From: a virus
Virus record (IMG/VR): IMGVR_UViG_3300007760_000740
Coordinates: 1-41,735 of that record
Strand: one strand, 5' to 3'
DNA: 41,735 nucleotides
Below, piece after piece: positions 22,570 through 30,242 of this stretch. The stretch's first letter is position 1; every line of letters starts with the position of its first letter. A program made the position numbers and the translations under genes. The notes under the pieces are model-generated. The model was not told the origin of the DNA and ran no database searches. It worked only from the letters and a program-made list of their open reading frames with translations.

Positions 22570-23508
22570 ATGAATAATACATTATGGGTTGAAAAATTTA
22601 GGCCAATGCGAATTGAAGATTGTATTTTACCAAAAGAAATTAAAACTATGTTTCAAAGCATAGTTGATAGTGGAGAAATACCCAACCTTCTTCTCACCGG
22701 AAGTCCCGGGATTGGAAAGACAACGGTAGCAAAGGCATTGTGCAATCAATTAGATTGTGATTGGTTGATGATAAACGGAAGCGACGAAGGCCGAATGATT
22801 GATACTTTGCGCACAACCGTTGTGAATTATGCCAGCACTGTATCTCTTTCAGGTGGGAAGAAGGTTATTATTATTGATGAAGCTGATTACATGAATAAAG
22901 ATTCTGTACAGCCTGCATTAAGAGGAGTGATAGAAGAATTTTCCAAGAACTGTCGTTTTATATTTACTTGTAACTTCAAGAATAGAATTATTCCAGCATT
23001 ACATTCTAGGTGTTCAGTAGTTGACTTTGTGATTAGTAAAAATTCCAAACCAGATGTAGCTATGGAAATGTTGGAAAATACTAAACGAATTTTAGATAAG
23101 GAAGGAGTGAAATATGATGAAAAGATTTTAGTAGATTTAATATTGAAGTATTTTCCAGATTTTCGGAGAGTGATTAATGAGTTACAAAAGTATTCTTTGA
23201 ATGGTGTTATTGATGATGGGATTCTTAAACAATCGTCTGATGAAAATTTCACTGAATTGTTTGTAGCTCTGAAAGGAAAAGATTTCTCGGGAATGAGGAA
23301 ATGGGTAGCACAAAATATTGATAATGACCACGTGAGATTATATCGTCAAATCTATGACACTTTGAATAAAAGATTTGAAAAACGAAGTATTCCACAGGCA
23401 GTTTTAACTATTGCAGATTATTCTTATAAGGCAGCTTTTGTTGCAGATCAGGAAGTTAATATGGTTGCTTGTTTAACAGAGATAATGATGGAGTGTGAGT
23501 TTGTTTAA
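22570..23508 (+). CDS. 44: Clamp loader ATPase subunit gp44
   Basis: 312 residues (T4: 319). The AAA+ clamp loader subunit opens gp45 and loads it at primer ends. It shows LWVEKFRPMRIEDCILP at the N-terminus, Walker A GSPGIGKTT (44-52), Walker B IIIDEADYM, and HSRCSVVDF with the SRC arginine finger. In T4 and cyanophages gene 62 follows directly. Here gene 62 lies about 7.4 kb further on, beyond the modification island. Confidence 0.96.
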   Translation: MNNTLWVEKFRPMRIEDCILPKEIKTMFQSIVDSGEIPNLLLTGSPGIGKTTVAKALCNQLDCDWLMINGSDEGRMIDTLRTTVVNYASTVSLSGGKKVIIIDEADYMNKDSVQPALRGVIEEFSKNCRFIFTCNFKNRIIPALHSRCSVVDFVISKNSKPDVAMEMLENTKRILDKEGVKYDEKILVDLILKYFPDFRRVINELQKYSLNGVIDDGILKQSSDENFTELFVALKGKDFSGMRKWVAQNIDNDHVRLYRQIYDTLNKRFEKRSIPQAVLTIADYSYKAAFVADQEVNMVACLTEIMMECEFV

Positions 23509-23520
23509 TAGGAGATTATT

Positions 23521-24099
23521 ATGAGTGTTATAACAGCAGATGAATTTACAAAGACAAAAATATATAAAGTTATTGAAGAAAATAAAGCTAATAATATATA
23601 TACTGGTACTCCATTTGAAAATTTAACTAGTTTGAGTTCAAAAGCAAAAGGTTCTAAATTTGAACAACTTACTGAAGAACATTTTCGTAAAATGTGTTCT
23701 GAAAATGATTTTGATATTATAAAATATAAAAATAAAGGTTCAGAATATGATAGACATTTTTTAGTATTACATAAACATAATATTTTATTTGAAATTAAAG
23801 GAAGTTGTATATGGCAAGATACAAATGTGTTCAAATGGCAACAAATTCGTCCGTCACATAGATATTCCCATATGCTTTTCTTAGGTGTTTATTTTGATAG
23901 AATAGAATTTTATTATTGTACGAAAAAAGAAATTGTTGATTATGTAATGGTACAAGATGAAGATGGTAATTGGCCGTATGCTCAACATGGTGGAAAAAAC
24001 AATAATGAAACACCAGATACATTTTGGATTCAAGGGCAACCTTCGGATTTTCCATTTATGAAACCATTAGATGATATTTTTGAATATGAAAACATTTGA
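23521..24099 (+). CDS. Putative PD-(D/E)XK restriction-type endonuclease
   Basis: 192 residues. A helical start with KGSKFEQLTEEHF precedes a nuclease-like core: Asp77 in GSEYDRH, then the E-x-K pair Glu91/Lys93 in ILFEIKGS, then FKWQQIRPSHRYSHMLFLGVY and an aromatic strand IEFYYCTKKEI. This D-(x)n-E-x-K pattern followed by WQQIRP and LGV is what type II restriction enzymes often show. The methyltransferase gene begins inside its 3' end, the classic arrangement of a restriction-modification pair. The function is inferred from motif and context; it could instead be a free-standing nuclease attacking host DNA. The ribosome site is TAGGAG. Confidence 0.65.
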   Translation: MSVITADEFTKTKIYKVIEENKANNIYTGTPFENLTSLSSKAKGSKFEQLTEEHFRKMCSENDFDIIKYKNKGSEYDRHFLVLHKHNILFEIKGSCIWQDTNVFKWQQIRPSHRYSHMLFLGVYFDRIEFYYCTKKEIVDYVMVQDEDGNWPYAQHGGKNNNETPDTFWIQGQPSDFPFMKPLDDIFEYENI

Positions 24100-25015
24100 T
24101 ATAAAAAATGAAGATTGTATAGAATACTTGAAAAGTGTTCCTTCTAATTCTGTTGATTTAATTTTGACTGATCCTCCTTATAATATTGGTGTTGATGGTG
24201 GAAAGGGTTGGGATAGTAAAAAGGGTGGTCAATGGGAAACTGAGAATGAATATTTATTATGGTGTAAGAAGTGGACAGATGAATGTGTCAGAGTATTAAA
24301 ACCAAAACGTATGTTGATTGTTTGGGGAACATTAAAGACTGATACATTTTTGAAGTATAAGCTTGATGTTTTAAATTCATATCCTGATATGGTTGGTCAA
24401 CAAGAAATCATTTGGGGTTATAATTGGGGCGGTCGTATTAAACATAACTTTGCAAGAAAGCATGAATATGTATGGTGTTATAGTAAGGGTGATAGTTTTC
24501 TTTTTAATGCTGATGATGTTAGAATTGATCGTGCTATTAAATTTAACATGAACAAACAAAAGAAAATGTTACATAGATTTAAAAATTATAAATGTTGGGT
24601 TAGAGGTGATAGAGAACCAACACAAGAAGAAATAAAAATATATAAAACTGATGTGATTGAACCAGCAACTGAATTTAAAAAAGGTTCAATCCCTACTAGT
24701 ATATGGCAGAAAAACAATCATACAACTTCTGATGATTATTGTGGTTGGCATGCTACAACTAAAAATATTGATATATTGGAAAGAATGATTGCCGCTTATA
24801 CCAATAAAGGTGATACTGTTCTTGATATTTTTATGGGTTCTGGTTCAACTGCAATAGCATCTAATAATTTAGGAAGAAACATTATTGGTTGTGAAAAGAG
24901 TGAAGAATATTATCCGAAAATGATATTTAGATGTGAATTAGCTATGTATAAGAATTGGTATGATAGAAATAGAAATGTTTTTAAAGCAATTGCACAAGAA
25001 AAGAAACAGAGATAA
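24086..25015 (+). CDS. DNA methyltransferase, beta-class (N6-adenine or N4-cytosine)
   Basis: 309 residues from ATG 24086 (24071 is an in-frame alternative adding five residues). The motif order is that of beta-class enzymes: catalytic DPPY at 29-32 in the N-terminal part, AdoMet-binding LDIFMGSGST (246-255) near the C-terminus, preceded by HATTKNIDILERMI, the equivalent of HPTQKP-LLERLI. The target recognition region lies between (about 120-215). DPPY fits N6-adenine or N4-cytosine transfer. It probably protects phage DNA from the nuclease encoded directly upstream, and possibly from host enzymes. Confidence 0.9.
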   Translation: MKTFDIKNEDCIEYLKSVPSNSVDLILTDPPYNIGVDGGKGWDSKKGGQWETENEYLLWCKKWTDECVRVLKPKRMLIVWGTLKTDTFLKYKLDVLNSYPDMVGQQEIIWGYNWGGRIKHNFARKHEYVWCYSKGDSFLFNADDVRIDRAIKFNMNKQKKMLHRFKNYKCWVRGDREPTQEEIKIYKTDVIEPATEFKKGSIPTSIWQKNNHTTSDDYCGWHATTKNIDILERMIAAYTNKGDTVLDIFMGSGSTAIASNNLGRNIIGCEKSEEYYPKMIFRCELAMYKNWYDRNRNVFKAIAQEKKQR

Positions 25016-25041
25016 TGATGGAATATGAATTTGTATAGTTC

Positions 25042-25080: not shown

Positions 25081-25968
25081 ATGAATAAACTAAGATATAG
25101 TGAAATGTTTTACTCAGTTCAAGGGGAAGGAAGGTATGTTGGTGTGCCTTCCGTTTTCCTTCGAGTGTTTGGTTGTAATTTTGAGTGCCGTGGATTTGGT
25201 CAACAAACACAAGATAGGGATAAATGGGTACCAGAAGAATTAATGCCTCATAATAAATCCTATTCTAATATAACTAATATTAAGGATCTTCCTGTTCCTG
25301 GTATAGGTTGTGATAGTTCCTTTTCTTGGGGAAAGAAATGGGGACACTTAGCAAATATTGATGATACTGATACTATTGTTGATAAAATCAATTCTTATAT
25401 TCCTAGCACAGAACCAATCCATTTAGTTATAACTGGCGGGGAACCACTCCTTAAAGGTTTTCGACCTGCTATGAGTGATATTGTTTTTCATCCTAAGTTG
25501 GGTATGAATAATGTAACATTTGAAACAAATGGAACACAAGAATATTTGTTTAATAATGCAACAAATACTCATGAGAAATATGAAATATATTGTGAAAGAT
25601 TTAGTCAATTTTATGGATCAAATGGTATTACATGGTCTGTTTCGCCAAAACTTTCTTTTTCTGGTGAAGAATGGAATGATGCTATCGTACCTGATGCGTT
25701 ACTTACTTATAACACTTGGCCTGATTCTTTTTTATATCTTAAATTTGTAGTCCGTTCATTAGTTGACTTACAGGAAGTTGAAGAAGCTATTATGGCATAT
25801 AAAGAAGCTGGTGTTAAAATAGATGCTGTTTATTTAATGCCTGAAGGAGGAACAGTTGAAGGATTATCAATTACAGAACAGGATGTAGTACAACTTTGTC
25901 TTGATACTGGATATAAGTTTAGTCCTCGTTTACATATTAATCTTTTTGGAAATATTTGGGGAACATAA
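25081..25968 (+). CDS. queE: QueE, 7-carboxy-7-deazaguanine synthase (radical SAM)
   Basis: 295 residues. It converts 6-carboxytetrahydropterin to 7-carboxy-7-deazaguanine. The N-terminus YSEMFYSVQGEGRYVGVPSV is diagnostic. The cluster-binding cysteines are C32 and C36 (GCNFEC) and C77 (GCDSSFSW), with 40 residues between the second and third, far more than in bacterial QueE, as in other phage-type enzymes. ITGGEPLL is the SAM-binding GGE motif and FETNGTQ follows. It opens the que operon from its own early promoter. Confidence 0.93.
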   Translation: MNKLRYSEMFYSVQGEGRYVGVPSVFLRVFGCNFECRGFGQQTQDRDKWVPEELMPHNKSYSNITNIKDLPVPGIGCDSSFSWGKKWGHLANIDDTDTIVDKINSYIPSTEPIHLVITGGEPLLKGFRPAMSDIVFHPKLGMNNVTFETNGTQEYLFNNATNTHEKYEIYCERFSQFYGSNGITWSVSPKLSFSGEEWNDAIVPDALLTYNTWPDSFLYLKFVVRSLVDLQEVEEAIMAYKEAGVKIDAVYLMPEGGTVEGLSITEQDVVQLCLDTGYKFSPRLHINLFGNIWGT

Positions 25969-28928: not shown

Positions 28929-30242
28929 ATGTCTAGCTTAACATATATAATGTCAGGAATCTCCATGGTTCTTAAGAATGGTAAAGTGTGCAAAAGGGAT
29001 AATGAAAAATATGCTAATATGGTTACTGATACTATTCGTGATTTTAAATCAGAAATTAATTTTGAAATGATGTTTAATGCCTATCATGAGGATGTTTTAA
29101 TGGATGGTTATTTATCTAAATATAAATATTTCGGTTCTAAATGGTATGCGGATTCTGGTGGTTTACAAGTAATTACAGCGGGTCGAACTATAACAGAAGA
29201 ATTAAAGCAAAAAGTTTATGAAATGCAAGCAATGCATTCTGATTATGCTATGTGTTTTGATGAAATGCCTATTAATGTTACTGCATATGCTGGTACTGCT
29301 TCAAGAGTTGATCTTTCAGGAAGACAATTTATAACCGAGTGGAAAGAAGAAAAAGCTATTAAAACTGGTTTAAATGTAAAAAAACAGATTGAAATTATTC
29401 GTAAAATGAAATCCAAAACAAAAGTATTTTTAATTTGTCAAGGAAATGATATACAGGATTTTGTTGATTATTTTGATACAGCTATAGCACAAATACCAGA
29501 AGAGTATTATTCAACTTTGGCAGGTGTTGCGGTTAGTTCAGCATGTACTGGATTAGGAAAATTAGAAACTATCAAATTATTAGGATCATATAAATTTATG
29601 AAAATTCCAGCAGGTATGGGAAATAAATTACATCTTCTGGGTTATGGTTCAAAAGGTAGATTATATTCAATGTTAATATTAAAAGAAAGTGGTTATTTGG
29701 ATTGTGATATTACTTTTGATTCTTCGTCACATGCAATGAATACCTTATTAGGTGAAATATTAGTTAAAGAGTGTAAATTATTTCCAGAAGGTGGAACTAT
29801 ACCGTTTGGTAAGGTAAGGACACCAAAGTCAGATCGAATATTTAAATATTTATATAATAAGTATGGTGTAGTTATTAGAAAATATTATGATAATATGTCT
29901 TTTGATGAATATTTAAAGATAGTTTGTGATGATCTTACAACCTCAAAAAAATTTCATTTAGATTGTAAAACAGATGTAACTATTCATTTATATACACGTT
30001 TTTTAATAGCATATGAATCATTCTATAATTTTGCCGAATCAATAATAAAAATAACAGATGGTATTAAAGAAAGAAAATTTGATTCTGGTGTTCCCATTAT
30101 TAATAGTTTAATAAATGTTAAAACAAAAGAAGATTTTAATAAGTGGATTAAAAAATGTTCGAAACACGTGCCTTCTAATGCTATTAAACGCTTTGAAACA
30201 TTTGACGAGGCACAAAAACAACAAGCAGTTTTACCTATATAA
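28929..30242 (+). CDS. dpdA: DpdA-type 7-deazaguanine DNA transglycosylase
   Basis: 437 residues. It is related to tRNA-guanine transglycosylase but belongs with phage DpdA, which swaps guanine in DNA for a 7-deazaguanine. The catalytic landmarks are ADSGGLQ (Asp75), CFDEMP (Asp111), the glycine-bearing GVAVSSACTG, and the second Asp in DITFDSSSH (Asp264), matching the two-Asp chemistry of the TGT family. Its place at the end of a queE-queD-folE-queC operon in a phage makes DNA rather than tRNA the likely substrate. AAAGGAA precedes the start. Confidence 0.92.
   Translation: MSSLTYIMSGISMVLKNGKVCKRDNEKYANMVTDTIRDFKSEINFEMMFNAYHEDVLMDGYLSKYKYFGSKWYADSGGLQVITAGRTITEELKQKVYEMQAMHSDYAMCFDEMPINVTAYAGTASRVDLSGRQFITEWKEEKAIKTGLNVKKQIEIIRKMKSKTKVFLICQGNDIQDFVDYFDTAIAQIPEEYYSTLAGVAVSSACTGLGKLETIKLLGSYKFMKIPAGMGNKLHLLGYGSKGRLYSMLILKESGYLDCDITFDSSSHAMNTLLGEILVKECKLFPEGGTIPFGKVRTPKSDRIFKYLYNKYGVVIRKYYDNMSFDEYLKIVCDDLTTSKKFHLDCKTDVTIHLYTRFLIAYESFYNFAESIIKITDGIKERKFDSGVPIINSLINVKTKEDFNKWIKKCSKHVPSNAIKRFETFDEAQKQQAVLPI

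Follow-up and report, generated by a model that had tools for sequence, protein, structure and literature searches.

A phage-borne gene pair resembling a type II restriction-modification module, with TTAA as its inferred target, inserted at gp44 of a T4-like phage

Restriction-modification is usually viewed as a bacterial defence against phages, and phage T4 breaks up the host chromosome with a chemistry of its own. Adjacent nuclease-methyltransferase pairs are, however, also carried by viruses. In the chloroviruses, the nucleases of such pairs are packaged in the virion, are held responsible for the rapid early degradation of host DNA, and proved not to be a cause of exclusion (PMC7019647). 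The GATC restriction-modification system of Marseillevirus is reported not to degrade host DNA and has been proposed as a weapon against competitors (PMC7253447).

The stretch of DNA analysed here (hereafter the window), 41.7 kb long, comes from IMG/VR and is a fragment of a T4-like marine phage, whose DNA polymerase is nearest to those of cyanomyoviruses (about 49% identity). Like the chlorovirus systems, it has a virus-borne adjacent pair, but those belong to eukaryotic algal viruses and their nucleases are virion-packaged (PMC7019647). Marseillevirus also has a virus-borne pair, but with a GATC target and an amoebal host (PMC7253447). Both window families are found in one cyanomyovirus genome, that of S-BM3 (T4-GC_685, "restriction endonuclease", and T4-GC_38, methylase), with 27.5% tblastn identity to the window for the nuclease and 54.5% for the methyltransferase. 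The two S-BM3 genes lie about 80 kb apart, whereas those of the window overlap as one unit. The inferred TTAA target presumably links the window module to the MseI-type (TTAA) type II systems; this target and an m6A-type methyltransferase are what they have in common, with no sequence comparison made and with the specificity taken from genome statistics only. EcoRV, PvuII and NhoI have the PD-(D/E)XK core in common with the window nuclease by fold comparison, but they show no detectable sequence similarity and have different targets. The literature searched yielded no account of TTAA avoidance by cyanophages or of the present cassette.

Our best reading, with a probability of roughly 0.72, is that the window pair is a phage-borne type II restriction-modification module that is used offensively. 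Catalysis, the TTAA specificity of the window's copy and the role are inferred. The features of the locus are as follows.

22570..23508, + strand: gp44-like clamp loader, left flank and insertion site
23475..23507, + strand: direct repeat copy 1, 33 nt, at the gp44 3' end (..TEIMMECEFV)
23511..23514, + strand: GGAG ribosome-binding site of the nuclease gene, read from the sequence
23521..24099, + strand: restriction-endonuclease-like gene of the PD-(D/E)XK family, 192 aa (PHROG_6927; cyanophage cluster T4-GC_685; TTAA specificity inferred for the family)
24086..25015, + strand: beta-class DNA methyltransferase gene (N6-adenine type, DPPY), 309 aa, with a 14-nt overlap with the nuclease gene
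25005..25037, + strand: repeat copy 2, a remnant gp44 tail (..TEIMMEYEFV stop) straight after the methyltransferase, marking the cassette boundary
25081..25968, + strand: queE-like gene, right flank, first of the 7-deazaguanine group

The original prediction had placed a 192-residue protein with D77, E91-x-K93 and WQQIRP directly before an overlapping beta-class methyltransferase, beside 7-deazaguanine genes, in the layout of a type II system. All of these residues are present in the ORF (D77, E91-I-K93 and W106-QQIRP), the methyltransferase (PF01555, E=1e-44) does follow directly, and queE is the right flank. The methyltransferase ORF has an alternative in-frame ATG at 24071, but the start at 24086 is backed by homologues, so the overlap is 24086-24099, that is, the 14 nt predicted. 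The type II layout is supported by the predicted fold, by conservation of the pair and by the genome statistics of relatives. Endonuclease and methyltransferase are separate, adjacent genes, as the type II criterion demands; no translocase or HsdS/Res subunit was found in the unit, whose neighbours are gp44 and queE. Upstream of the pair are gp45 and gp44, and downstream are queE, a phosphoribosyltransferase gene, queD, folE, queC, a TGT/DpdA-like gene and DNA polymerase B.

The nuclease matches PHROG_6927, a family of unknown function, and PADLOC REase_II models matched both it (4.6e-8) and its S-BM3 homologue (1.5e-27). It had no Pfam or NCBIfam family match, a PDB sequence search with the nuclease or its profile returned nothing useful, and no relatives were found in about 85,000 bacterial and archaeal genomes by a scan reaching pattern matches only. 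The direct match among 50,697 phage records was S-BM3, whose gene is annotated as a restriction endonuclease; via this homologue S-ShM2, S-RIM14, P-SSM7, ACG-2014f, S-SSM4 and others were reached. Residues S39, K43, G44, E48, D77, E91, K93, K135, Q155 and G158 are invariant in an alignment of 36 members. In the AlphaFold2 model (pLDDT 87, pTM 0.81), E91 and K93 share one strand and D77 sits in a low-confidence loop. Foldseek against the PDB gave EcoRV (prob 0.99), I-Ssp6803I and NhoI as top matches, all of them PD-(D/E)XK enzymes; the E-values are modest (EcoRV 0.006), yet the matches converge on one superfamily. A predicted fold lacking a nuclease core had been set beforehand as a refuting outcome, and these matches show that it did not occur. 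The model and the residue conservation together suggest a PD-(D/E)XK endonuclease, with catalysis inferred in the absence of activity data. Structural matches in BFVD were unnamed viral proteins (A0A0P0YNA6, G8DD32, F2Y0Z8 and A0A076FFB8), one match being from Aureococcus anophagefferens virus, an algal giant virus.

When IMG/VR was searched with the methyltransferase or the nuclease, more than 20 distinct viral loci had the nuclease gene immediately before the methyltransferase gene or overlapping it, some listed loci being the same contig fetched twice. The divergence of the two proteins is correlated (mirror-tree r=0.78, 0 of 5000 permutations, 23 distinct pairs). Because the same order recurs in these loci and divergence is correlated, the layout is not due to chance, and the two genes form a conserved unit that is shared by many marine phages.

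Palindrome counts were compared with a Markov expectation. In a blind scan of 613 4/5-mers, TTAA came out on top (p=1.3e-6) and had much the strongest effect, its median observed/expected ratio being 0.28 in 28 nuclease-positive records and 0.87 in 11 controls. These 28 records lack independence, G040 and S-ShM2 being 92% identical; after clustering of the nucleases at 80% and 60% identity, p was 1.4e-5 and 1.5e-4, respectively. Across the 179,563 bases of S-ShM2 (loci L118-L126) TTAA never occurs, against an expectation of about 590, and the unrelated contig G012 has 0 of 95. S-BM3, which has both genes, has 76 against 552 expected. In eight cyanomyoviruses unmatched by the nuclease search, TTAA stands at 0.74-0.93 of expectation. 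The median was 0.06 in records without a visible methyltransferase and 0.37 in paired records, although most contigs are fragments, in which absence of the methyltransferase is unproven. The residual shortage in paired contigs is not required by full methylation alone, and two of them are only weakly depleted (G015, 0.78; G038, 0.77). The relatives' genome statistics imply in vivo cleavage by the nuclease at a defined 4-bp site, most likely TTAA, a specificity inferred from these statistics alone.

Other candidate targets were rejected. CCGG is depleted in controls too and contains no adenine, GATC and CATG are low in the window but unsupported by relatives, and the six-base palindromes missing from S-ShM2 are mostly scarce in controls as well. 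Single palindromes were absent from several other stretches that were read: CTAG in S-SM2 (0/87, L145), GTAC in S-SM1 (0/154, L149), TCGA in S-SSM4 (O/E 0.0, L204 and L205), and both GATC and AGCT in G029 (O/E 0.0, L179 and L180). These may mark other phage-borne or host-borne nucleases. In a second nuclease subfamily, FIINHVS replaces WQQIR (L005 and L006, which are P-SSM7 and AG-345-E15, and L007 and L008); in P-SSM7 and AG-345-E15 a different beta-class methyltransferase follows. Carriers of this subfamily, three of which are among the controls, keep normal TTAA, so it should have another target.

The window methyltransferase has DPPY and FxGSG-type motifs, as expected of a site-specific amino-methyltransferase, and DPPY (motif IV) precedes GSGS, the order of the beta class. 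The same family also follows other small genes, including nuclease-like ones. In one alternative partner family (e.g. L055:3421-4011) the D...E-x-K is invariant and the predicted fold resembles PvuII; another partner (L071) carries a motif similar to D...E-x-K but matches restriction enzymes only weakly. TTAA is likewise depleted (p=8e-4) in contigs that combine the same methyltransferase with other nuclease-like genes, and it is only indirectly, via these partners, that TTAA specificity of the methyltransferase is supported. Bacterial relatives are few and have no recognised nuclease partner, and therefore give no specificity information. The family was also seen, with no recognised nuclease beside it, in Chloroflexota/Dehalococcoidia MAGs (L136-L139).

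The 33-nt repeat of the gp44 tail (copies 29/33 identical) and the existence of empty-site relatives show that the cassette entered at the 3' end of gp44: the DNA past copy 2 is colinear with the gp44-queE junction of the cassette-free L233 and L248. In a random control, a comparable match was obtained 4 times in 3000 random 33-mers, all from one other repeat. At the cassette position after gp44, large ORFs without Pfam or PHROG match were seen in the window's relatives L230 (6010-8061, 684 aa), L235 (3209-4801, 531 aa) and L239 (5950-8040, 697 aa). Another direct repeat (32/33 nt, copies about 250 nt apart) lies at about 2000-2290 of the window.

The insertion with its duplicated tail could also be explained by homing: the nuclease would be a selfish endonuclease of the homing type, with the methyltransferase as its hitchhiker, and its benefit would be its own spread through gp44 and not attack on the host. 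HNH or endonuclease-like genes occupy the same junction in other relatives (L231, L238 and L246), the nuclease is a good structural match to I-Ssp6803I, and L233 and L248 supply the empty-site alleles of a conserved insertion site that homing calls for. Homing enzymes, however, recognise long, rare sites and require no methyltransferase, whereas the genome-wide signal of this family is for a 4-bp word (there are no cleavage data) and the nuclease is kept with the methyltransferase across many different phages. Mobility is compatible with restriction, and we regard homing as unlikely. It is also rather unlikely, in our judgement, that the methyltransferase alone is the useful part, as an anti-restriction shield against a TTAA-cutting host system, with TTAA lost to host restriction and not to the phage nuclease. 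Orphan phage methyltransferases are common, the present family also occurs without an adjoining nuclease, and depletion of CCGG, AGCT and GGCC in the controls too indicates that host-driven avoidance does occur. Yet nuclease-free phages from the same host strains keep normal TTAA: on WH8102, S-SSM5 has 292/331, against 0/590 in the nuclease carrier S-ShM2; on WH7803, S-PM2 has 322/348, against 76/552 in the nuclease carrier S-BM3. Such same-host differences speak against a host effect. TTAA loss is moreover most complete in S-ShM2, which has the nuclease but no PF01555 methyltransferase (a D12-type one is present), and of 5 contigs that carry the methyltransferase without a recognised nuclease, 4 show no strong depletion (0.73-0.87; G029, 0.37).

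The window itself is not depleted, with 532 TTAA against 537 expected, and its cassette-free relatives are likewise undepleted (0.87-1.12). The specificity of the window's enzymes therefore rests on homology, and the window count is no evidence for TTAA specificity of its copy. It fits recent acquisition with protection by methylation, and also drift or inactivity. A restriction-modification module whose window copy has drifted to another site or become inactive is thus a possibility that we hold doubtful without dismissing it. The window nuclease is divergent, 41-43% identical to its nearest paired relatives and at most 43% to any (the methyltransferase, about 60% to the nearest). Against this, all invariant nuclease residues are kept, both ORFs are intact, and the strongly conserved segments of the methyltransferase family are retained.

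If the module is indeed an offensive restriction-modification system, the PD-(D/E)XK endonuclease would cut unmarked DNA during infection, most likely at TTAA, and the N6-adenine methyltransferase of the overlapping gene would most likely methylate the same site, sparing the phage DNA. The most likely uses would be breakdown of the host chromosome and destruction of competing phage DNA; we place the former somewhat ahead, although nothing here decides between them. A weapon against host or rival DNA, as originally proposed, remains an inference, and so does the activity of the window's enzymes. A virulent phage lineage nevertheless appears to carry restriction-modification as an offensive tool, and the erasure of all of the roughly 590 expected TTAA sites in S-ShM2 is strong natural evidence for enzyme action during infection. 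A broader picture has, in our view, about even odds: in virulent T4-like phages the TTAA enzyme would be a lytic-cycle DNA shredder, self-exemption would come from TTAA methylation (the window) or from deletion of all TTAA (S-ShM2, restriction without modification), and one methyltransferase type would serve several unrelated, exchangeable nucleases. The inferred TTAA target is concrete and cheaply testable, for a gene family that carries only a hypothetical annotation in the majority of marine phages.

The 7-deazaguanine genes adjoin the cassette yet form a separate, independent system; relatives carry them without the cassette. TTAA has no G or C, from which we infer that 7-deazaguanine modification could not shield it and that the methyltransferase would be needed. 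Cassette-free relatives keep the 171-aa RHH-like gene at 25956, and a role for it as controller of the cassette was therefore discarded. The TGT/DpdA-like gene (28929-30242; PHROG_10773, unknown function), beside queE, queD, folE and queC, has relatives in Vibrio, Stenotrophomonas and Pseudomonas phages, and together with these neighbours suggests the presence of 7-deazaguanine in the phage DNA.
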